Origin: Paracyclopina nana
Taxonomy: Eukaryota; Arthropoda; Copepoda; Cyclopoida; Cyclopettidae
NCBI GenBank assembly: GCA_019096065.1
Contig: JAGUCH010000002.1
Location: 2,244,501 to 2,308,500, forward strand
Direction: 5' to 3'
DNA length: 64,000 nt
A model generated the notes under the pieces. It was not told the origin of the DNA. It searched no databases and saw nothing but the letters and a program-made list of their open reading frames with translations. Shown in pieces: positions 9,672 through 59,666 of the stretch. Position 1 is the stretch's first letter, and the number at the start of each line of letters is the position of its first letter. A program made the translations under genes and the position numbers.

Positions 9672-12632
9672 GTGACCAGTGAGTTCACTGTGAACAGTGT
9701 GATCAGGGTGAACAGAGTGAACAAAGTGATCGGTGTGTTATCTGGGACCTGAGTGTTCAATGTGAACAGTGTGAACAGAGTGAACAAAGTGATCGGTGTG
9801 TTCATGTGTGACCAGTGTGTTCAATGTGAACAGTGTGATCAGAGTGAACAGAGTGAACAAAGTGATCGGTGTGTTCTTTTTGACCAGCGTGTTCACTGTG
9901 AAAAGTGCGAACATAGTGAACAAAGTGATTGGTGTGCTCTTTGTTAGCACTGTGTTCACTGTGAACAGTGTGATCAGAGTGAACAAAGTAATCAGTGTGT
10001 GACCAGTGTCTTCACTTTGAACAGTGTGAACATAGTGAACAGAGTGGACAAAGTGAACAGAGTGAACAAAGTTATCAGTGTGTTCATGTGTGACCAGTGT
10101 GTTCACTGTGAACAGTGTGAACAGAGTGAACAAAGTTAACAGAGTGTTCTCTCTGACTAGCCTGTTCACTGTGAACAGTGTGAACAGTGTGAACAGAGTG
10201 AATAAAGTAATCAGTGTGATCGTCTGTGACCAATTTGTTCACTGTGAACAGTGTGAACAAAGTGAACAGAGTGAACAAAGTGATCAGTGTGTTCTTTGTG
10301 AGCAGTGTGTTCACTGTGAACAGTGTGAACATTGGTAACAGAGTGAACAGAGTGATCGGTGTGTTATCTGTGACCAATTTGTTCACTGTGAACAGTGTGA
10401 ACAAAGTGATCAGTGTGTTCTTTGTGAGCAGTGTGTTCACTGTGAACAGTCTGAACAGAGTGAACAAAGTAGTCAGTGTGTTATCTGTGACCAGTGTGTT
10501 CACTGTGAACAGTGTGATTAGAGTGAACAGAGTGAACAAAGTGATCAGTGTGTTCGTGTGTGACCAATTTGTTCACTGTGAACAGTGTGAACAGAGTGAA
10601 CAAAGTGATCGGTGTGTTCTTTGTGAGCAGTGTGTTCACTGTGAACAGTGTGATCAGAGTGAACAAAGTAATCAGTGTGTTATCTGTGATCAACGTGTTC
10701 ACTGTGAACAGTGTGATCAGAGTGAACAAAGTTATCAGTGTGTTCGTGTGTGACCAGTGTCTTCACTTTGAACAGTGTGAACATAGTGAACAAAGTGATC
10801 AGTGTGTTCTTTGTGTGCAGTGTGTTAACTGTGAACAGTGTGAACATTGTGAAGAGAGTGAACAAAGTAATCAGTGTGTTCGTGTGTGACCAATTTGTTC
10901 ACTGTGAACAGTATGAACAGAGTGATCAGTGTGTTATCTGTGACCAATTTGTTCACTGTGAACAGTGTGAACAGAGTGATCGGTGTGTTATCTGTGACCA
11001 ATTTGTTCACTGTGAACAGTGTGAACAGAGTGAACAGAGTGATCGGTGTGTTATCTGTGACCAATTTGTTCACTGTGAACAGAGTGAACAAAGTGATCGA
11101 TGTGTTCTTTGTGAGCAGTGTGTTCATTGTGAACAGTGTGAACAGAGTGAGCAAATTAATCAGTGTGTTATCTGTGACCAATTTGTTCACTGTGAACAGA
11201 GTGAACAAAGTGATTGGTGTGTTCTTTGTGAGTAGTGTGTTCATTGTGAACAGTGTGAACAGAGTGAACAAAGTAGTCAGTAAGTTCGTGTGTGACCAAT
11301 TTGTTCACTGTGAACAGTGTGAACAGAGTGAACAAAGTAATCAGTGTGTTTGTGTGTGACCAATTTGTTCACTGTGAACAGTGTGAACAGAGTGAACAAA
11401 GTGATTGGTGTGTTCTTTGTGAGCAGTGTGTTCACTGTGAACAGAGTGAACAAAGTAATCAGTGTGTTATCTGTGACCAGTGTGTTCACTGTGAACAGTG
11501 CAAACAGAGTGAACAAAGTGATCAGTGTGTTCTTTGTGAGCAGTGTGTTCACTGTGAACAGTGTGAACATTGTGAAGAGAGTGAACAAAGTAATCAGTGT
11601 GTTCGTGTGTGACCAATTTGTTCACTGTGAACAGTATGAACAGAGTGATCAGTGTGTTATCTGTGACCAATTTGTTCACTGTGAACAGAGTGAACAGAGT
11701 GATCGGTGTGTTATCTGTGACCAATTTGTTCACTGTGAACAGAGTGAACAAAGTGATCGATGTGTTCTTTGTGAGCAGTGTGTTCATTGTGAACAGTGTG
11801 AACAGAGTGAGCAAATTAATCAGTGTGTTATCTGTGACCAATTTGTTCACTGTGAACAGTGTGAACAGAGTGATCGGTGTGTTATCTGTGACCAATTTGT
11901 TCACTGTGAACAGTGTGAACAGAGTGAACAAAGTTATCAGTGTGTTATCTGTGACCAGTGTGTTCACTGTGAACAGTGTGATCAGAGTGAACAGAGTGAA
12001 CAAAGTGATCAGTGTGTTCGTGTGTGACCAATTTGTTCACTGTGAACAGTGTGAACAGAGTGAACAAAGTGATCGGTGTGTTCTTTGTGAGCAGTGTGTT
12101 CACTGTGAACAGAGTGAACAAAGTAATCAGTGTGTTATCTGTGACCAGTGTGTTCACTGTGAACAGTGCGAACATAGTGAACAGAGGGAACAAAGTGATC
12201 AGTGTGTTCTTTGTGAGCAGTGTGTTCACTGTGAACAGTGTGAACATTGAGAACAGAGTGAACAAAGTAATCAGTGTGTTCGTGTGTGACCAATTTGTTC
12301 ACTGTGAACAGAGTGAACAGAGTGATCAGTGTGTTATCTGTGACCAATTTGTTCACTGTGAACAGTGTGAACAGAGTGATCGGTGTGTTATCTGTGACCA
12401 ATTTGTTCACTGTGAACAGTGTGAACAGAGTGAACAAAGTGATCGATGTGTTCTTTGTGAGCAGTGTGTTCATTGTGAACAGTGTGAACAGAGTGAACAA
12501 ATTAATCAGTGTGTTCGTGTGTGACCAATTTGTTCACTGTGAACAGTGTGAACAGAGTGATCGGTGTGTTATCTGTGACCAATTTGTTCACTGTGAACAG
12601 TGTGAACAGAGTGAACAAAGTTATCAGTGTGA
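9672..12632 (+). repeat. Left arm: hierarchical 9-bp minisatellite array
   Basis: Nearly 3 kb of 9-bp units of the form GTG-AAC-AGA with variants (GTGAACAAA, GTGATCAGT, GTGTTCACT, GTGTTCTTT, GTGACCAAT), punctuated by 6-bp insertions. Units group into blocks of about 60-75 bp, and these into a higher-order repeat of roughly 0.7 kb whose start (ATTGTGAAGAGAGTG and variant) recurs near 10848, 11571 and 12245. Because the unit is a multiple of three, several frames stay open on both strands; these are not genes. Confidence 0.9.
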
Positions 12633-15600: not shown

Positions 15601-17138
15601 TTCAAATCGATCGCTCGAAATTTGACGCGAACCGTTTTTCGCGGAAAATTCCACTTTAGAAAGCTATAAAGTCTTCAAATTCTTGAAAAAGTCCAAGAAA
15701 ACAATAAAAGGAAGCCTTGGTAGCAAGAATTGCCCCATTTCGAGTAGTTTTAGGCCCCAAAACAGGCCAAATTTGGGCCCAAAATGCAAAAGTAAACAAA
15801 CTCTATATAGTAAACTTTGACGATCGATATCTCAGCAACGGAGCGTCTCAAGATGGATCCATTTACGGTTCTGAAGTTGTGCTGAGCTCCTCTACAACTT
15901 TGCATATCATAGTCAAGTAAATGTCCACTTCCAAGTCTGCTTGCTTGTACTGCTGAGCGCTCAGCGCTATCTCAGCTTCTAGACGTTTGATTTTAAAACT
16001 GTTTACAGCTACGGAATTCAGAGACTCAGCAGAACAAAGTTTCATATCATAGTAAAGTTGATATTTTGACTTCTACACCCGCTAGTTGTTAACGAAAAAG
16101 CCCAATGTAGTACTTACTAAGGCTGCGTTTCATCCATCTATTCAACGCCAAAATTCAAAAAATGCCCCGATTTTGAAACTATTTACAGTTTTGGAAATGG
16201 GAGATTAAACTGAACACTTTTTATTACATAGTAAACAAGATAGCTTAGCTAGAAGTCTCCGTAAAACTCAGCAGGTAGGCTGCTATTAAGCGGTAAACTT
16301 TGGCGCGCGATATCTCCGGTTCAAGAACAGATTTCTGGCTCCAATTTGAACCTGTGAAGTCAGGGCAACCTCCTCTACAAGGTTTATTACATGTCCAAGT
16401 CCGAGTTTGATGAGGTGAGTGAGGTTGATGAGGTGGGTGAGGTTTATATGGTGGGTGAGGATTGTGAGGTTGATGAGGTGGGTGAGGATTGTGAGGTTGA
16501 TGAGGTGGGTGAGGTTTATATGGTGGGTGAGGATTGTGAGGTTGATGAGGTGGGTGAGGATTGTGAGGTTGATGAGGTGGGTGAGGTTGATGAGGTTGAT
16601 GAGGTGGGTGAGGTTGATGAGGTGAGTGAGGTTGATGAGGTGGGTGAGGATAGTGAGGTGAGTGAGGTTGATGAGGTTGATGAGGTGGGTGAGGTTGATG
16701 AGGTGAGTGAGGTTGATGAGGTGGGTGAGGATAGTGAGGTGAGTGAGGTTGATGAGGTGAGTGAGGCTGATGAGGTGGGTGAGGATTGTGAGGTGAGTGA
16801 GGTGATCTCTGTGTGTTCTTATGGCTGATGAGGCTGTTATGTGCTATGTGTGATTTCGGGATTTCTATGCACTGGTTATCTGGCCACTGCCACTTTTCGT
16901 AAAACTCGGTAAGCATGCTAAAATTCGAAAAATGCTCCGATTTTTGATTTATTTGCAGTTTTGGAATCTAGAGACAAAAATGAAAAACTTTGCCTACTCT
17001 GATCAGCCAATCAAATTGCTGCATGTGGTCACGTGACAAGTTTCGCGCGCAACAGTTTTTCCAAATATACTTGCCCAAAAAGCGCCATTTAGCGAACAAG
17101 TTTGTCGCTCCAATGGCATATTATTCACGTTACTTATG
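12633..17138. repeat. Interior of the foldback element
   Basis: Non-coding repeats rich in CTCAGC. Direct pairs: 13381-13675 with 14436-14732, highly similar; 14994-15585 with 15808-16390, more diverged, period about 814 bp; and two units of about 75 bp at 14128-14303. Inverted pair: 12739-12925 with 14810-14998. The phrase GGCGCGCGATATCTC recurs near 13357, 15001, 15490 and 16302. A GC-rich patch with a short tandem of GACCTACCGC lies at about 13765-14080. No coding sequence is credible. Confidence 0.75.
16399..16806 (+). repeat. Second 9-bp minisatellite
   Basis: About 400 bp of units GAGGTTGAT, GAGGTGGGT, GAGGATTGT and GAGGTGAGT. A short stretch of the same unit in reverse orientation lies at about 12926-12965 (CCTCATCAACCTCACTCACC), so it too is present in inverted copies inside the element. 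Confidence 0.85.
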
Positions 17139-22446: not shown

Positions 22447-24455
22447 TTAGGCTAAGCCATTGAAGTGATGAACCGTAGTTCTGCCATCTATGGTAGACAC
22501 CTCAACTTTGGTCCTTATTTTCTGAGCCGCAAATTGTCCATTGTTTCGTCTGGTGATCTGGATGATATCGACAGGATTCTTCGACACAAAATGGTTCATT
22601 TTGGTGCCATGCACAAATTCAGATCCAGCATAGTCGAGATTTTGGAGGACATTGTCAATGTCACTGGCCTTCATCAGTGTGTTCTTGAAAGCCCCATCAC
22701 TAGATCAAAAAAGGGTCAATTATGGACATTTCCAAAAGATGTGAAAAAAGGCCTTACTTTCGTATCATTCCGAGGTTCTGAACATCAGCAGGATTGTTCA
22801 AGTTGACGCCATCAAAGAAGTCATCGTTAACAACATGCTTTGATTTGAAGTTGTATGTTGGCCTGTCTGGCCAAACACCTTCAAATCTAGGTGCTGCACC
22901 TGCAATGTCATCAGCTGCACCTGCAATGTCATCAGCCGCACCTGCGATGTCATCAGCCGCACCTGCAATGTCATCAGCCGCACCTGCAATGTCATCGGCC
23001 GCACCTGCAATGTCATCAACCAAGCCACCAGGTGGGCACCTTTTGACCCGGATTTTCACCTCTTCTTGGCTGAGCGTGTACACAAAATCATCAACTTTGG
23101 CCAGCTCCCGATCCAAAAGCTGCTTGCATTTGGCAAACTCTCGCTTTGACTTGTCCCCAGCAAATATGCAGACATTCGTGACCAAATTGTTGGTCATTGT
23201 CGAGTTTTCAGTCAGCTTTTTCGCCTCGAACACAAGGGAATCCAGCAACTCGTTGACAAACTGGCCCTCATCCGGATCGTCCATTATTATTTCATCGTTG
23301 TACTTGTTCAAGCTGACCAAAAGCTGGTACTCACATTCCGCCAAATCCTCACTAGGGTAAATGGAGGTGCAAATGTCCCTGAAATAGGGCCTTGATTTTG
23401 GGTGGCCTGCAATCATCATCTTCATGACCAAGACAATGCTCACCACGCTGTTCACCAAAGTGAGAGAACTCAGCGCTGCCTCATTGGCAACCTCCAGGTC
23501 CTACATATACATGAAAGTTAGTTATATTTTGCAATTCTTGCCATAACTATGATGACTGACGTGTAGCGAGCCTGGCAAATAACCTGCCAAATTGGCAGGA
23601 ACTGGGGGCAAATCCTGGTGGAAAATCAGCTCGTTGCCAGCTGATCTTTTGCAGATTTTCTTGGGGGTCGCGGCGCCTACTTTTCCTTTTCCGCTGATGA
23701 AATTGGAGGCGGAAACTGCTGAGGCAGCCCCGCCCACAGCAGTCAGAGTTTGACCTGCAGCCAGGTCAAAGCCTTCACCAATATCCATATTTCCACTGAT
23801 GGCATTGTCAATCTTTTTTTAAGAAAAAAACATGATGATTATTATGATCATTATATAAATGATCGGAGCATAACTTTCGCACCTGCTTCACCATTCCGCG
23901 ATGTTCTCCGGCAATTGCTGATTCGGACACATCCCAAAGTGCATTTGCTTCCAGGGCAAAAGTTCCCCCGCAAACTGCAGCAGCTGGCCCACAAGCCGCT
24001 CCAGCAATCCCTGCTGCAGCCACCACAGTGCTCTTGGTTGCACCTGAAATTCGACAATTATTCGCGGATCAAAAAACGGAGGATGACATACCCAAGGCCA
24101 CAGATTCGGCCTTTTTCAAGTCTCCGGTCGCAGCATAAACGCCAGCGGTGACATGGCCCACAACTGGCAAATTTTCAGCCATAGTCAGCAAAGAATTTCC
24201 GCCCTCCTCAGCTATCTTCTTGGCCTCTTTGGCATCACCCTATTAATTGCGGTTTGGGCATAGTATATAACTTAAATATGGATTTTAAAATATGAATACT
24301 TTAATGACATGCGCCAAGCTGTTGACTTGAGAGACAATTGGGGCTGTTCGCGAAAATTCCACTTGGGTTCTCTTGGCACCTTCGGCATCTCCTCCAATCA
24401 CTTGAACCAGACTCTTGACTTGAGACACGACAGGGATCGAGTTGATGCTGCCCAT
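22447..24455 (-). CDS. Unrecognised 567-aa arthropod protein with DDIAGAA repeats
   Basis: I cannot assign a function. Six phase-consistent exons: 24455-24309, 24239-24092, 24043-23883, 23812-23561, 23500-22758 and 22699-22447. The N-terminal half has paired segments of the type VVSQVKSL..GGDAEGAKR and IVSQVNSL..GDAKEAKK, then NLPVVGHVTAGVYAATGD and a glycine/alanine-rich hydrophobic stretch (VAAAGIAGAACGPAAAVCGG). This recalls a poorly characterised arthropod family, possibly DUF4781; low confidence. The fifth exon encodes a cysteine-containing helical region and six tandem copies of DDIAGAA (22904-23029, 21-bp DNA repeat). The C-terminal part is basic. No signal peptide. The start is the first ATG after a TATA-Inr promoter. 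Two donors are GTCATT and GTCAGT. Confidence 0.75.
22904..23029 (-). repeat. 21-bp tandem repeat inside a coding exon (6 copies)
   Basis: Six in-frame copies of a 21-bp unit encoding DDIAGAA, nearly identical at the DNA level, which suggests recent expansion and likely length polymorphism. Confidence 0.9.
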
Positions 24456-50233: not shown

Positions 50234-50239
50234 TTTATT
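50234..50239 (-). promoter_or_regulatory. Poly(A) signal of the PEBP-DOMON gene, overlapping its stop codon
   Basis: Minus-strand AATAAA in which the TAA stop codon (50237-50235) is embedded, implying a 3' UTR of a few tens of bases. Confidence 0.6.
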
Positions 50240-53200
50240 CAGTGCATTTCTGTATGGGCTGGATGCAGTTGGAAAAGCAAGGATAATCAGAGATGTGGAC
50301 ACAGCATTGTAATACATTCCAAAATACAGAATTGGGAGGGCATTTTCGAATCAGTCTCTTGCCAAAGGAAGAGCATTCTTGATAGTGGTTGAATTTCTCG
50401 TTTACAGTCCATTTTCGAGTTGAACCTTTTTTGGCTTTGCAATTCAGCTCATGGGAAGGCTTTGAGGATATTTTGCCCAGTTCATCACCACAATACAGTT
50501 CCTTGTATTTGGCTTTTTCTACAAACTCAACTGGCAGCTTTACATAACCATCTTTGAATTCTTCATGCTCATCCAGGAAAGTGTCCAAATCTTGGAATAT
50601 TTCTGGGTGATTCTTCTTATGCTGCTCCAATAACTCTGCATAGTAATTCTGTGAGCTCGTATCATACTTTGCCTCTTCCTAAATTAATTTAAGCCCATTT
50701 AGTGTAATATCATACTTTGAGTAAAAATACTCACTTTTTCCTTAGAGGTTTTTTTACCATAGGATTCCTCATTTCTTCCAACAGAAGAGTCCAATTGTTG
50801 CTCTCCATTACCATATGATTCTGTTTCAAAATCTAGAATAGAAATGCTCGTTAAATTGATTGCTTTAATTGGGCTCTTAAGCTAAAAAAAGGCTCACCTT
50901 TGTTTGAAGAGGCGTACAATTTGGTCGGATCATGTGTTGTACTAACAGTTTCAGATATTTTACCATTTTCTGAAAGCTGCTTTTGATGGTCGATATTTTC
51001 AAGGTTTTCCTGGGTATTCTTTTCGGCGATATTTCCATCTTCCCAAGACTTGTCTTTCCTGCTTTCTACTTGACTTTCAAAGTCTTCCTCATCTTCACTA
51101 ACGTTTTTTATTTCCTCAGTTGCACTTTGACCTGTTTTTTCATTGTCTTCTAAATATTTTCCATAATTGTCAGTAATTGATTGGGATTCAAACTCCTCCT
51201 CCTGGTTGGGCTCTGTGCTTAAGTCAGTAGTTCCATGATCATCACCTTCCTCATTAGTAAGTGATTCCTTCTCATTGTCGCCATACATTTCAGAATCATC
51301 ATAAACACTTGTATCTGTAGTTGCATAGGGATGAGAAGTTTTGGCATACAAGTTATCAGAAGAATCAATTTCATCTTCATCTAATGTTTCTTGATTTTCT
51401 GAGTCATGTGAGTTTGTATCATTCTTCATTTGGGACTTTTTGTGATTGTCTTTCACTTTTTTTCCATTGTTGGCGTTATCATTTCCACTTTGAACATCCA
51501 ATTTGTCAGATGAATCATGTTGCAGATCATCATAACTGTCTAAAGACTCTTCATCATATTGATCATCCTTGGATGTAGATGATTCATTTGAATACTGAAC
51601 ATTCTTATCCTGATCATCCAACTCTGCTTTGCTGTAAATATCATCTTGCTCATCCTTGTAATGAATTTCAGTCAAATCATTATTAAGTTCATCATTTCTA
51701 TCCACCTCTAAGGTAGAATACTCAGTATTCAAGCTTATCGAGTCATCTTCAGTTGCCTCAACTTGATCTCTTGTGTAAAGGCTGCCGTCATCATTATTCA
51801 ATGTTTCTTCATTATGCAATGTGTTTGAATCATTGTCTTTTTGATGCTTTTTAGTATTACCTTTGGTAGATTTATCATTCTTGCTAGTTCCATTGCTGCT
51901 TTCATCATTAAAGCTATCAGAGGAGTCATGTCTTGTATCATCTATATTGCTTTCAGACTCATTTCCACTCATGGAGTCATTTTGTGGTGCTGATGATTTG
52001 TTCGAGGTTTGAACATCCTCATATACATCATCCAACTCAGTTCTGCTGTAAGCATCCTCTTGCTCATCTTTGTCATAAGTTTCAGTAAGCTCATTGATTA
52101 ACTGATCATTTCTGCCCATGTCATTCCCTGAAACTTCAGTATTTACACTTATGGAGTCGTCTTCGCCAGGCTGAAAAGGCAGATCCTGACCTTCTTCACC
52201 TTCATCGATCATATTCCTTTGGCTACTTTTGCCATCTTCATCATAAAAATTATCATTTTTATCCCCATAAGTACTTCCATTATCAGATGAGTCATGCTGC
52301 TTGCCATCATCTCTGTTCTCTGGCTCATGATTGCCTTTGTTAGCCTGATGAGTTGATGATTTATTTGAGGATTGAACATCCTCATATACATCATCCAACT
52401 CAGTTCTGCTGTAAGCATCATCTTGCTCATCTTTGTCATATGTATCAGTCAGCTCATTGATTAGCTGATCATTTCTTTCCACATCAAACCCTGAAGTTTC
52501 AGTATTCACATTTATGGTGTCATCTTCACCAGGCTCAAATGGCAGGACTTTGTCATCATAGTTAATTTGTTTGATTTTTTTATCGCTGTAAACACTTCCA
52601 TAACTGCTTTCATCATCAGTGTTATCAGTTGATTCATGAAGAGCATCATTTTGATTGTGTTCAGACTCATTGATTTCCTTGGTATCATCCTGATGGGTAG
52701 ATGATTTATTTGAGAATTGAATGTCCTCAACTTGATCATCTAGTTCAGTTTTGCTGGAAATGTCTTCTTGCTCATTTGTATCAGACAACTCATTTTTAAG
52801 CTCATCATTTCTTTCAAATTCAATGTCTTTTTTCATACCCTTAGAGTCACCATCATCATTGATTGAAATTTCAATAGTTGTGCTTTCACTTTCATCACCA
52901 TACAAATTTTTTGGATCTCCCACCTCATCATTGACTACTATTTGGTTCTCCTCATCAATGTTGGTTTCATCATTTGCCTCTTCAAAGAAAGTTTGATTCT
53001 CATCTATGGTCTGCTTGTCATATTCATCAATATTTTCAGATTCATCTAAGGTGGAAATGTTGTACTCCTTTCTTTTGCTTGAAATGTCATTGCCAATCTC
53101 AGTAGTTACACTTATTAGACCATCTTGATTGTAGCCTCTTCCATATGAAATGATATCACCGTTTTCAAGGAATTGTTTACTTTCTTTACTTTGCTTGGTG

Positions 53201-56200
53201 TCTGAGTCATCCAAATATTTGTTGATCACTATTTCATCAGTGTGCTCTTCAATGGTTTCATAATACACAGATGAATTAGTGGAGTTGCCAACTTCATATT
53301 GATTAATTTGTTCAACTTCACCAAGTTTTAACGGATTGATGTCTCCATTTGATTTGCTACCGCCGAGAATATAAACTGAACTTAATTTATCCAAATCAAT
53401 GTCATGATCCTCATCATTTGTGGAAATGTCTCGTCGGAATGATGCCTTCAAATTTAAGCCTGAATTGTCATCAAATTGCTCATTCTCAATATTTTGCACT
53501 AAGTCAGGTTTGACTTCATTGCTGAAATTTAAAAAAAATAGTTATTACAAAAATTAAAATATTACTTTCTTTGCATTACTTTTCCAAGTATCCGTCAATC
53601 ACAGATCCATTCTTAAAAATAGAGATGATATCATCACCATCACTTAGCTGCAAGAAATTATGTTTGAGGTGGTGCAATTTTAGGCAAGAAATTGTTGAAG
53701 GTACTTGGCTATTATCTTTGGAGAGACCAATTTGCAAGTGAGAGCTATTTTTGGCAAAAATGTAAAATTCTTCTTTGCCATTCTCTCCTGGTGACCATTT
53801 CACTTCATATGAGCATTCATTTCCAAGGCATTTTCTTGGATACTTAAATTGGCCTGATAATTTGTCTTTAGAAATGGACGTAATTTTTAATTAGCTGGCA
53901 ACAATGTGTAACCATTATTTGAGAATACCCTTAAAATATGAGCTCTGATGGGAGTTATCTGGCAATTTTTGGGGATCAGATAACTTATGGTTTGACACTT
54001 TCCAAAACTCTTGAGAGTCAGTCTTGGTTATGATGTATGCAGATGCATCTTCAATTTTGATTTTGAAAGTGAGTTTGACTTTATTGTCACCAATCTGTTC
54101 CACCGCTGCATCATGCATTCTTTTAGCTCGAGCTTCTTTTAGCAATCCCCTATGAGGAAAAGTAGGTAATTTCCAAAAAAGGCCTTTTTTTTAACTTGGT
54201 TACTTACACTCCGAGAAGTTCTTCAAAAACTGAACCATTTGGGAAAAATGTCAGTATGTTTGCATTGACAGCCTGAAATTAGGTAAAGTCATAATCCTCA
54301 AATACTATATGAGAAAAAGAAAATTAGAATACATCATCTGCTGCTGTTAGACCTATTTGGCCGTATTTATTATCCCTATCCATAATTGCCTCGATTTCTA
54401 TTGAGTCTCTGCGTCTTCTGGGTCTCCATGTGATTTTCTTGGGACTTTCAGCTTAGGAAAGATATGGTTTTGATTAAAGCGCTTTAAAAAAATGTGCTTT
54501 ACTTGTAGCTTGTGGCAGTTCAGTTTGTCTGATTACTTCATTTTCTTCAGCTGCCAATTCTTCATCAGTCAAAATATATATTTCTACCACTTCTTTGAGT
54601 ATTTTGTCTTCTGGATCATTGGTATCGATTTTTCGTTTGAATTTCACCTCGTGCACTTCGCTGTCATTTCTCACTATTTGCAAATCATACACATCATTAT
54701 GGTCATCCTCAACAATATTGTGCCTACGAATTTTATAATTAATGATCAATAATGAGTAAAAAAAGGAGAGTAATTTTTACCCATTCAGATGAGCATCAGT
54801 AATGTTTCCAGAGCTGTCTATTCTGATGGCATCTGCATTTTCGTACTTGAAAGTTTCAAATCATTTTATGACAGACATGGTTTTTTTTAAATTGCGTACT
54901 TGGTTCATGACATCTGTGAGGCCAATCTGTATTTGCTTGCTCCCTCTGAATAATAGATGAAATTCCACTACATTATCGTCCACTTCCACCATTTTAAGCC
55001 AATAATCACAATTGAGAAAAGTACAGTTTTGTGGATACTTGTAATGCTTCATGTATTCTGAAATTACGTTCAAAATACGTGATCTGCAACTATTTTTCTG
55101 CATTGATCATCAGCATACTTTTCTCTTTTTTGGGCTCTTCAAGTGGCAAAATCTCCTTGTAGTACACATATTTTCCTCGTTGTACAAATACAAAAAATGA
55201 ATTTGATGCGAAATCGAACTTATCACTCGTGACATTTGTCATCAGACTAAACCACCTCTTGCTATTATCAATTCCTGTTTGGAATTGAATAGGCTCTTTT
55301 TTGCTTTTCCTTTTAGTTATTTTTCCACTATGAACAAAATACATCATGAGTACACCTACAAAGACGCACAAAATGTACATGAAATCGTTTACTTTTTCAC
55401 AACTCCTTCTGTAATGGAGCCATTTTTGAGCAAAGTGTATCCAGTTCCATTTTTGAGGTCTGCTGTATCTGAAAATCCAATGCTCACATCTTGATCAGAA
55501 GTAGTATTGATTTGCAGTATTCCATCATTGGTACTTTCCCAATGTATTTTTACTTGACAACTGTCTGCTTGGCAGTCATTTGGTATTTCAAAGGTACCCT
55601 TGATCTTTTTGGGCTTTTCCAACGATTTTCCAGCTCCAAATAGAGTGCACTGATTTTGAATACAGTTAAACTGCTGCTTACAGTCACTCGATGTATTGCA
55701 AGCTGTATTCACTCCACCTTGGTCCAAATTACTCCGATCATGGAAAGCATCCAAATAAAAGTAATTTCCAGCCACTGGACTGCCCAGTCCATATTCATTA
55801 GAGACAGTTCTAACATGTAAATCTCCCCTGGTGTCGTCTGGGGATTTGCGAAATGTATTCGAGTCGAAAATTTCCAAATCAGATGTATCGATTTTTTCGT
55901 CCTGCTTGTACACCAAGGCCACAATTCGCTTGATTCCAGATGAATTATCATGTGTGTATTCTGGAGAATACGCAACAATGGTTTCTCCTTGATCCACATT
56001 TCCACCTTTGATAAAAAAGTATCTTTTGCATCATTTTTTAAATGGATACATTTCACTTCCACTTACCTGGAATGTTATGTATTGTCCAATGCTGCCATTC
56101 TGCTTCCATAGGAATATTTCGACTGGGTACATCTGGATTCACGAAATACAGTGTGTACAGCGCATTTTTGTCAACATTGCTCCATTTCACTGATGGAGTT

Positions 56201-56614
56201 TCCTTCACTTCTTCCAGCATCAAAGTGGACCCAGGAATGACTGGGTCGAATCCTGGATAAGTTATTTCGAGTAGCCCTTTTGGAGACATTGCTATCACAT
56301 CAGGGACTATTTTCCCTTCATGAAACACAGTTTTCAGCACCTGGGGATCAATTGTGTGAATCCTAGCGTTTTTCAAATCTGGAACATCCTTTGTAAACGC
56401 ATTTTCAAGTGAAGCAATAAAAAAATGTACCTTGCGCTTCAACTCCGTTTTGATTTGCCCTTCAAAAAAATGTGTTCGTCAATTTTTATTTGAATGATCC
56501 AGTATTTTATTACTTAAAGGCCGTTTGAGGGGTACCATAATTATTTTGTCCCGAAATGAGGCTAATGAATAGAGGAAGCAGAATAACACAGCAATAAATT
56601 AAGCAAGTTGTCAT
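50235..56614 (-). CDS. Secreted PEBP-DOMON-acidic repeat-chitin-binding protein, about 1835 aa
   Basis: Sixteen exons: 56614-56514, 56459-56431, 56378-56067, 56005-55393, 55327-55119, 55057-54900, 54845-54781, 54723-54503, 54451-54333, 54272-54208, 54149-53929, 53865-53705, 53647-53580, 53521-50898, 50832-50735 and 50678-50235. Order of parts: signal peptide (about 1-23); PEBP fold (about 45-232; VPDVIAMSPKGLLEITYPG, LYFVNPDVPSR, EWQHWTIHNIPG, YGLGSPVAGNYF); a four-cysteine spacer (about 250-267); four DOMON-like modules (about 284-420, 421-570, 571-704, 705-781), each with an IGLT/IGFS strand and an NGS-I motif, the second continuing as VYDLQ..VKFKRKIDTNDPEDK, typical of DOMON; an 875-residue Asp/Glu/Ser/Asn-rich region with four repeats; and a six-plus-cysteine C-terminus (1768-1825) like a divergent peritrophin-A/CBM14. 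Probably an extracellular matrix or cuticle protein. The junction 54900/54845 is one base off canonical GT-AG. Confidence 0.8.
51300..53000 (-). repeat. Acidic protein-level repeats within the big exon
   Basis: Four diverged repeats of about 115-135 residues, each with an RNDEL/RNDQL-N-L core, KDEQDD, the phrase Y-S-R-TELDDVYEDVQ, SNKSST and HDSSD. Two central copies are most alike, consistent with intragenic duplication. The exon has no introns across 2.6 kb, unlike the rest of the gene. Confidence 0.8.
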
Positions 56615-56695: not shown

Positions 56696-56818
56696 GGTGT
56701 GTAGTAAGCATTGCCAAGTTTCCTTATTATAGTACGACTTAAAATGTGAAGCTTTCTGCTTTCTTCTATCCTTTGAGCAAAATGATGGGCTAAAATGCAT
56801 TATTTTTCTGCTGTTGTG

Positions 56819-59666
56819 ATGGAGCTGAAAGCTTACTCAGTCACTTTGCTTCTACTATATTTTTCTGACTTTTTAACAGGATCTCTTACAAGTGATTACA
56901 CAGCAATACCAAGCATTCAACAGGACAGTGATGGAATTCCGCTGGCCCACATGATGGCAAAGCACACTTTCAGTAAAAGGACAAGGCAAGCCTTGTTAGA
57001 AGTCAACAGTTTGGCAGAGTTGAATGAATTGGTGGAGAAATATCCATATGTTGCAATTTTGATTCAAGATGAAAGCAAGGTGAGCATTTCACATGAGCAA
57101 ATATTCCTTATTTTCATATTTGCATTACAGGCTTGCTTGAAAACATTACACGATTTGGAACTCATCAAGGCAGATGCTCACTTATTTCAAATAACCTGGA
57201 GGAGAATTAATGCGACCAATTTCATTGAGAATGGTGATTTAGGAGTCTTAAGCTCAAATTGCTCAGTGGTATTTTACAAGAATGCTCAGCCTGCAAAATA
57301 CCCAGGAAAAGCTGACAGGCAAACAGCTGTTTTGAAATGGCTCATCAAGGAAATCCACTGTCACACAGATGAGCCATTGGATGTGAATGTGCATCAGTTT
57401 GAAGTGCTCATTCGCTCATTCAGGAATTTCATCTTGGTATTGTCTTCTTCGAGAATCAAATCATCCAGGCAGCTGGTACATCAATTCAGGAGGTATAACA
57501 ATTGGTGCTCTAAAACCAACAGGATCCTCATAGCCTCCACAGACAGCTCAGAGATCATCAAAAAGCTGGAGCTGCCACACAGACCCCCACTTATACTGCA
57601 CATTGTTCATGGGCTGTACATTATCTTCGATGGGAATATAGCCGACATGAATTCTGTGCTAGAATGGATTACCATCGAAGTACCAACAAACTTAAAGTAA
57701 GCGTAAGCACTTCTTCAACGCCTTCTCATGTTCCTGCACCCACAGTTTTCGAGTCACACAACCTCTGGTGTGCGCTAGTTAGCACTAAACAGTCGCTGCA
57801 TCAGACGCTCAGCATTTGTCCGCTTGGTCTGCGCAAAGCTCAGCAATAAACTGAATCTTCTAAATCCGCGCGCACCTCAAAGCCCACCCACCGCCAAATC
57901 CGCAAACAACTAGTCCGCACATTAAATCTACGCACAGCTTAGTCCGTGCACCACTAATTCCACCAAGTCCGCGCACCACCTACCACTGAGTCCATGCGCC
58001 CCCTAGACCACAAGACAATGCTTAGTCCCCGCAACCTTGTATCCCCGCACAGCTTAGTCCGCTCGCACCGCCAAGTCGGCGCACCGCTTAGTCCGCGCAC
58101 CGCTTAGTCCACTTACCGCTTAGTCGGTGGAGCGCTTGGTCCGCGCACCACCCACTCCGGGCTCAGCATAGTCCGCACACAGCTTTTTACGCACACTGCA
58201 AAGTCCCCGCAATCTTGTATCCGCTCACAGCTTAGTCCGCGCACCGCTTAGTCCGCGCACCGCTTAGTCCGCGCATCGCTTAGTTCTCGCACCGCTTAGT
58301 CCGCCTACCGCTTAGTCCGCGCACCGCTTAGTCCACGCACCGCTTAGCCGGTGGAGCGCTTGGTCCGCGCACCACCCACTCCGGGCTCAGCATAGTCCGC
58401 AAACAGCTTTTTACGCACACTGCAAAGTCCCCGCAACCTTGTATCCCCGCACAGCTTAGTCCGCGCACCGCTTAGTCCACGCACCACTTAGTTCGCGCAC
58501 CGCTTAGTCCGCGCACCGCTTAGTTCGCGCACCGCTTAGTCCGCGCACCGCGTTTTTATCCACGCACCGCTAAGTACGAATTCCGAGAAGTTCGTTCATC
58601 GTGCTCCGTGAAGACCGGGAGCACAGCAATCACTCCGCGCACCGCTTAGTTCGCGCACCGCTTAGTCCGCGCACCGCGTTTTTATCCACGCACCGCTAAG
58701 TCTATGCGCCGCTAAGTACGAATTCCGAGAAGTTCGTGCATCGTGCTCAGTGAAGACCGGGAGCGCAGCAATTACTCCGCGCACTCTAAGTCTGTGTCCA
58801 ACGCTTTGTCCGCGCTCCACTAAAACCGTGCGATTTTTTGATTAAGGGTTGTTGGGCAGTCGCATTTGGACCGGATTTTTGCACGGGAAGAAGTTGTTTT
58901 GGTCTTTTTTATTGATGAGTCTACTCCGCTGCTGAATGCAGCCCTCAAAAAAGCTGGAAGGGATCTGGAGCTTACGTTTGGCCTGGCAGTGGTTGATGTC
59001 ACTGATATGGAGGTGGCAGCCTCATTCAACATTACAACATTTCCCTCAGTTGCCTTGTTTGAGGAAGGCAATCTGAAAATGTACCAGAAAGATTTGATTG
59101 GGGAGAAGAATGTGAAAAAATCCGCTGAGAGGATGCGCCAATGGATCATCCAAAGGTTGGAAGCCAATGACCGAATCATTGTGAAGACAATAGCTTCGGA
59201 GGACTTTAAGAGCAGTCCGGATGACTTCAAGCATGTTTTGCTGAAAGAGCACAAGGACTCCATCAAAAAGCTCTCCTTGGAATATGTCAAGCTGCAGAGG
59301 GAGAATGTGGAGCTGAGAAAAATCATCGCAGCTGCCAAAGAAGCTCTTGGACTCATTGAAATTGTCACCATGTCCGAAATTCAAGCAGATGCCTTGGACG
59401 AAGCTGCATCTGAGAATTTCGGTCTCACTGAGGAATGCAAGGACTGCTTGTCCAGCTTTGGCATGGCAGTCTGGAATTGTGGCACTTTTGAGATGGACTG
59501 CATCAAGGGAGCCATTGAATTGGGCTCTGAGTGTCATCCATGCATTTGTGAAATCATGGATTATTGGTGGCCAGATGATGCTCCCAATTGCTTCCAGAAG
59601 GAAATCCAGAAAATCACCAAGCCGGAGTCAGAGCAAAGCAAACCCATTGAGAAAGTAGAATTGTAG
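56819..59666 (+). CDS. Secreted/ER protein with three thioredoxin-like domains lacking the CxxC active site
   Basis: 548 aa from exons 56819-57079, 57131-57696 and 58847-59666. The ATG at 56819 gives a clean signal peptide (MELKAYSVTLLLLYF); an in-frame ATG at 56795 would add eight residues. The first region (VAILIQ..., NCSVVFYKNAQPAKYPGK) and second (FILVLSSSR..., RPPLILHIVHGLYIIFDG) look like degenerate thioredoxin folds. The third (VVLVFFIDES, LAVVDVTDMEVAASFNITTFPSVALFEEG) is clear, with the cis-proline region TFPS. None has CxxC at the active-site position, so a PDI-type redox role is unlikely and chaperone or structural binding more so. A helical segment follows, then a cysteine-rich C-terminus (CKDC, CHPC, twelve cysteines or so). 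The acceptor at 58846 was chosen because it alone keeps the frame. Ends 114 bp before the kelch gene. Confidence 0.75.
57697..58846 (+). repeat. GC-rich 16-bp minisatellite filling an intron
   Basis: Intron 2 of the thioredoxin-fold gene consists largely of units GCGCACCGCTTAGTCC and variants. There are higher-order copies: a block with GCTCAGCATAGTCCGC at about 58150 and 58385, and one with TACGAATTCCGAGAAG near 58575 and 58718. It contrasts sharply with the AT-rich exons and the 51-bp first intron. Confidence 0.85.

Follow-up and report, generated by a model that had tools for sequence, protein, structure and literature searches.

A predicted gene joining a PEBP domain, DOMON-type modules, a long acidic region and a CBM_14-like end in Paracyclopina nana

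In the window, i.e. the whole 64-kb stretch of DNA that was analysed (C2:2244501-2308500), the minus strand between 56614 and 50235 can be read as 15 exons joined in frame into 1841 residues without internal stop, which combine a signal-like start, a PEBP domain, four DOMON-type modules, a long acidic region and a CBM_14-like C-terminal end. We consider it reasonably probable that this is one gene for a secreted, chitin-associated protein of the extracellular matrix, which would have arisen by exon shuffling and cassette duplication, its DOMON modules binding glycans or proteins and its acidic region acting as a spacer. The gene model is a prediction, spliced by hand from the genomic sequence alone rather than from transcripts; all 14 introns are of the GT-AG type and 51-76 bases long. 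A preliminary description of this DNA had likewise proposed one gene with an unusual domain combination, and both proposals gain support from the gene model, from Pfam and from a second gene of the same genome which repeats the acidic part, the DOMON-type cassette and the same end. The start (56614), the stop (50235) and the junctions 53580/53521 and 50898/50832 given there are the same in our model; the multi-exon structure was also recovered, with 15 instead of 16 exons. Searches of the open-licence literature retrieved no report of PEBP, DOMON and chitin-binding domains in one protein, and, among the matches listed, titles and opening lines of abstracts indicated no protein joining PEBP and DOMON.

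Two of the joins between unlike parts are independent of the predicted splicing because each lies within a single exon: exon 3 encodes PEBP together with the beginning of DOMON 1, and exon 13 runs from the last portion of DOMON 4 into the acidic region. At the other end of the gene, exons 14 and 15 contain no methionine and their frames are not open upstream to any ATG, so that the C-terminal domain could not start a separate protein there. Introns 3-12 follow the phases 2,1,0,2,1,0,2,1,0,2, a cycle of 2-1-0 over ten consecutive introns, and the last seven phases would match the first three by chance in about 1 in 2000 cases if the three phases are taken as equally likely. This cycling indicates that a three-exon DOMON cassette was duplicated. 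The model appears less firm at its beginning, where the donor of exon 1 (GTACCC) is weak and the beginning of exon 2 includes a stretch for which, as judged by eye, other splicing is possible. Exon 1 itself (56536..56614; this and all further features of the gene lie on the minus strand) contains the start codon and a signal-like peptide (MTTCLIYCCVILLPLFISLISGQNNYG) whose best 11-residue Kyte-Doolittle mean is 3.03, in agreement with the signal peptide proposed earlier, and we infer from it that the product is probably secreted. The stop codon TAA (50237-50235) is located inside a poly(A)-type AATAAA starting at 50239 (50235..50239), which is weak evidence for the gene end because seven other AATAAA and two ATTAAA are found in or just around the gene.

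Several further observations were made in the window. Intron 11 (53704-53648) has 57 bases, a multiple of three, and contains no stop; if retained, it would lengthen DOMON 4 by 19 in-frame residues. A divergent neighbour is suggested on the plus strand by open frames at 56786-57700 and 58842-59666, of which the first starts about 170 bases from the start codon of the PEBP/DOMON gene and has no match, and the second shows a weak thioredoxin match (18.2 bits vs a cut-off of 23.5). Three kinds of coding-like stretches made of short repeats (HCEQSEQSDRCV-like, HPPHQPHSPHQ and ADDIAGA) are located at 11341-12250, 16245-16967 and 22754-23500, and an Rfam search of the 64-kb window gave no match.

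The PEBP domain comprises residues 72-241 (55755..56325) and was placed by Pfam PBP and by phmmer searches against PDB; it covers the end of exon 2 and the start of exon 3, with the intron 56066-56006 inside. The PBP profile (PF01161) matches with 26.3 bits, above its curated cut-off of 24, and the PDB relatives include Tm16 (5tvd, E 2.7e-28) and CG7054 (2jyz, E 2.8e-21). By sequence this is the same domain as in these insect-type proteins, whereas here it is fused to other domains. DPDAPSR of Tm16 corresponds to NPDVPSR and GLHRY to GIKRI, and in the alignment to the PDB relatives the conserved anion pocket, whose residues we take to be Asp70, His86 and His118 (human numbering), is incomplete: His86 is kept (EWQHW), Asp70 is replaced by Asn and His118 by Lys. 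The Asn may be ordinary in this genome, since NPDVPS recurs in an open frame close to a further PEBP match (L041 5542-6102). The view that PEBP proteins are normally small and single-domain needs qualification, as it overlooks the mitochondrial ribosomal protein mL38, which is present among the PDB relatives of the domain. In the genome as a whole, PBP scores highest at L040 4298-5422 (46.2 bits), a place that looks like this ribosomal protein. Between PEBP and DOMON 1, the sequence contains a Cys hairpin (CNTSSDCKQQFNCIQNQC; 55647..55700), which matches DUF7107 with 16.5 bits, under the cut-off of 24.6.

Over the N-terminal 865 residues, Pfam detects DOMON (PF03351) in three stretches with an E-value of 5.4e-20 and 72.3 bits (cut-off 32.7). 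Searched alone, module 2 (54503..55057; exons 5-7, intron phases 1-0-2-1) reaches 37.4 bits (E 3.5e-9) and module 4 (53365..53853; exons 11-12 and the start of exon 13, the Pfam stretch ending at 53365) 38.9 bits (E 1.2e-9), both above the cut-off. Module 1 (55119..55598), whose A and B parts are encoded in exon 3 and whose C part in exon 4, with intron 55392-55328 inside, reaches 13.8 bits alone and stays below it; the degenerate module 3 (53929..54451; exons 8-10) gives no Pfam match alone. The introns of module 1 have phases 2 then 1, fitting the other modules, while module 3 has an exon B of 65 nt, an exon C of 221 nt and the phases of module 2. We accepted both as DOMON-type because of the repeated intron phases and gene structure together with the alignment; the four DOMON-like modules described previously are thus recognized by Pfam alone in two cases, and in the two others they are placed by phases and alignment. 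In the alignment, module 1 has its B|C boundary in the columns that also hold it in modules 2-4 and the second gene, and the phase pattern 1-0-2-1 occurs four times in the PEBP gene (one of them without the phase-0 intron) and once in the second gene. Compared with PDB, modules 2-4 retrieved only dopamine beta-hydroxylase (E 1.6), which is a hint at best.

The Asp/Glu/Ser/Asn-rich acidic region, defined by composition (50735..53295), consists of the rest of exon 13 and exon 14, with the intron 50897-50833 inside. Its length had been put at 875 residues, which is about the length encoded by exon 13, but because at least the first 53 of these residues complete DOMON 4, the acidic portion is only about 800 residues long. 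Residues 861-1735 contain 27.9% Asp plus Glu, and the pI of the acidic part is 4.05. An open frame of 895 codons would arise by chance with p of about 1e-32 at the base composition of the stretch. Four repeat units were set by eye (R1 52818-52696, R2 52524-52351, R3 52161-51988, R4 51747-51574), and pairwise pN/pS over 58 codons each is 0.32 (R2-R3), 0.39 (R2-R4) and 0.37 (R3-R4); the shorter R1 gives a weaker signal, 0.78-0.88 across its three pairs. The low values among R2, R3 and R4 suggest that the acidic region is probably translated and in part conserved. In a self-BLAST, the acidic repeats produced no off-diagonal matches.

The C-terminal domain in exon 15 (50678-50235) was recognized by its CBM_14 (peritrophin) match and by its identity to the domain of the second gene (50277..50390). 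Its match has 16.5 bits (E 0.0097) and is below the cut-off of 22.1, whereas the homologous domain of the second gene reaches 22.7 bits; the chitin-binding-type end of the preliminary description is supported to this extent. Canonical CBM_14 (peritrophin-A) domains have a six-Cys pattern. As judged by eye from the alignment, the ends of both genes retain five of the six Cys places, the second Cys being Phe, and an extra Cys creates a CC pair. Because of this replacement and the score of exon 15, chitin binding may have been lost or changed. A hydrophobic C-terminal tail is absent (best 15-residue mean 0.82), so that no GPI anchor is expected; a structure prediction of exon 15 alone had a mean pLDDT of 39.2 and was discarded.

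A search of the genome (92 Mb, 10 contigs) with the exon 15 protein retrieved, besides exon 15 itself, a single further place, C2:2612921-2613115, 318 kb away (35% identical, E 7.4e-8), and with cut-offs of E 0.1 and 1 the C-terminal domains of both genes found only each other. Hand splicing at this place gave a gene of 8 exons and 893 amino acids on the minus strand (L045 7883-4790, within C2:2608000-2617900), one donor of which (GTTGAT) is unusual. Its product shows a signal-like start, Cys hairpins, an acidic region with 36% Asp plus Glu, a DOMON-type cassette whose intron phases are 1-0-2-1, and the C-terminal domain. It shares with the PEBP gene the Cys hairpins, the acidic region, the cassette with its phases, and a CBM_14-type end that is 35-36% identical (E 7.4e-8 and 1.4e-8) and has the same Phe-for-Cys and CC pattern. 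It differs in that no PEBP domain was seen, in having one DOMON-type module instead of four, and in the position of this module after rather than before the acidic region. The module gives no Pfam DOMON match alone and is 19% identical to module 2 in a low-identity alignment. Using the first 850 residues of the PEBP gene as query, the genome search did not find the second gene; conversely, the Cys and DOMON part of the second gene matched its own exons and, weakly, a single further place (E 0.257), and the PEBP gene was not among the matches. The cassette of the second gene has diverged too far for pairwise searches to connect it with the PEBP gene, and the kinship of the DOMON parts is proposed from layout, phases and low-identity alignment.

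Where the DOMON cassette may have come from is suggested by other genes of the genome. Within a small set of loci, a profile of the five modules matched, outside both genes, L007 (E 5.3e-6), L010 (E 8.8e-6) and L013 (E 3.6e-4), the first two belonging to the same gene region as L046 (C4:4640000-4649900) and the third to that of L050 (C2:4160500-4170400). In both regions, as in the PEBP gene, DOMON with a K(Y/H)PxxC...C start is found along with acidic low-complexity stretches, and, as judged by eye, a phase-0 intron directly follows GFSx..M. Since this start, the acidic repeats and the phase-0 intron are common to all, the cassette probably derives from an L046/L050-like gene. In contrast to the PEBP gene, EGF domains are present (in L046 by Pfam, in L050 by eye only), and the DOMON of L046 shows no degeneration, a piece of it joined by eye reaching 109.8 bits. 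The three pieces of L046 covered by the Pfam scan showed no match to PEBP or CBM_14. Long acidic repeats of the AESEAE type are located between DOMON parts at L046 5926-8062 and L050 5762-7099, and a short open frame at L050 277-528, perhaps from a mobile element, contains GDVELNPGP, which we take to be a 2A-like motif. With the 850-residue N-terminal query only three PEBP-type places were found outside the gene itself. None of four PBP places detected by exon-by-exon family searches is within 10 kb of any of 19 DOMON matches, although these searches can miss intron-split PEBP-DOMON genes, as they did not list the PEBP gene itself. Four DOMON matches were observed in one 803-residue open frame at L044 4632-7648 (C4:390631-393647), and the following open frame looks, by eye, like a cytochrome-b561-type membrane part; among insect hits, a passage in PMC10691727 gives only 19 of 888 with two DOMONs. 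In locus L051 (C10:1-9900), at the beginning of a 268-kb contig, open frames made almost purely of short repeats (VFAVFARVCC-like) overlap in large numbers, resembling a satellite array.

A different reading of the locus, which we regard as quite unlikely, assumes two transcription units or an alternative start: if the donor of exon 3 is read through, the first protein would end at a TAA right after this exon, and a second protein comprising exons 4-15 without PEBP would start at ATG 55380 with a signal-like peptide of its own. Unspliced intron 3 (55328..55392) indeed contains, in frame with exon 4, a start codon and the hydrophobic stretch MYILCVFVGVLMMYFVHSG, whose best 11-residue mean of 3.04 is as high as that of exon 1 (3.03). 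When the intron was shuffled 5000 times, no more than 45 copies had a mean of 2.5 or above, a rate that would amount, were all 14 introns alike, to at most about 1 in 8 for the gene; intron 3 is the only one of the 14 to show an ATG with such a stretch. On the other hand, hydrophobic residues arise from T-rich introns by composition, and the junction of exons 3 and 4 agrees in phase (2) and in its place in the alignment with the B|C introns of modules 2-4 and of the second gene. We assign a low probability to this start because each product would be left with half a DOMON. With a single chitin-associated secreted protein, its place may still differ from the outer cuticle or eggshell. Pfam describes CBM_14 as the peritrophin-A domain, and a location in the peritrophic matrix or some other inner lining is conceivable, though unlikely. 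Evidence against a single chitin-bound protein is the score of exon 15 under its cut-off, the Phe in place of its second Cys, the failure of modules 1 and 3 and of the second gene's module in Pfam alone, the lack of a link between both genes in pairwise searches, and the start codon with its hydrophobic stretch in intron 3.

The preliminary description had also suggested that the acidic part binds calcium and steers mineral deposition, as it might in a calcified cuticle or eggshell. Enriched S-x-E motifs are a mark of Fam20C-type secreted phosphoproteins of mineralised tissue. In 799 residues of exon 13 they are depleted (4 vs 12.0 expected from 500 shuffles, sd 3.2), which speaks against a protein of this type; DxDxD does not occur in the acidic region (2.8 expected from shuffles, sd 1.8), the longest run of Asp and Glu is 5, and acidic kinase-type sites (41 vs 43.4 expected) and sequons (16 vs 15.2 expected) are close to expectation. 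Acidic stretches are moreover found in two other DOMON genes of the genome. The low pI and the 28% Asp plus Glu in the same chain as a chitin-binding-type domain would fit mineral steering, and an excerpt of PMC4444123 offers a precedent, a chitin-binding protein of the apatite-covered crayfish tooth. We see no specific support for this role, have rejected it as the lead reading and regard it as improbable. Even less credible is a redox protein whose DOMON modules bind heme for electron transfer, like those of cytochrome b561-DOMON proteins. The DOMON family match itself would be compatible with it, and heme-binding DOMONs, with axial Met and His ligands, are described in part of PMC10691727. 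The controls were four modules from b561-type DOMON genes of the same genome (one from L047 and three of the four in L044). The Met column is filled in all four controls, and His occupies a single column in three of them and is shifted by one position in the fourth. The ligands are in neither column in the four modules of the PEBP gene and the module of the second gene, some of which are gapped at the His column, in an alignment that is not firm because only 11-18% of positions are identical to the first control; in module 2 a Met is located five columns ahead of that of the ligand. A heme redox role was rejected on this basis.

We therefore return to the secreted, chitin-associated matrix protein. 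The CBM_14-like end would most likely anchor the chain to chitin, and the DOMON beta-sandwiches, in which heme ligands were not found, would most likely have carbohydrate or other matrix proteins as ligands. The acidic region may form a long disordered polyanion which separates the two ends, holds water and cations and might also bind cationic cuticle proteins, and the PEBP domain, with its altered anion pocket, could represent a derived head for docking of ligands or proteins. The cuticle or eggshell matrix protein proposed earlier is a fair suggestion of what this protein may be. The genome is arthropod-like, with at least 80 Chitin_bind_4 and at least 99 CBM_14 matches; Chitin_bind_4 typically occurs in arthropod cuticle. 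A role in the chitin matrix is plausible because in insects the DOMON protein Knickkopf associates with chitin and protects it, as stated in excerpts of PMC4140639. Knickkopf and its insect paralogues thus resemble the protein described here in being DOMON proteins associated with chitin, yet the same excerpts give them two DM13 domains, one DOMON and a membrane anchor. The N-terminal 865 residues show no DM13 match at E up to 10, and with the two DM13 before DOMON and a hydrophobic tail both absent, membership in the Knickkopf family was rejected. Elsewhere in the genome DM13 and DOMON matches do adjoin, e.g. at C2:3725779-3726962.

More tentatively, the two genes may represent a lineage-specific family of chitin-anchored polyanionic matrix proteins, assembled from a three-exon DOMON cassette, acidic repeats and a modified chitin-binding domain, one member of which captured PEBP as a scaffold head. 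If expressed as modelled, the gene would show PEBP in an extracellular, matrix-attached role and would be a clear example of domain shuffling guided by intron phase, with the order of parts changed in the second gene. A chitin-associated role for heme-less DOMON modules, besides that of Knickkopf, thereby becomes testable.
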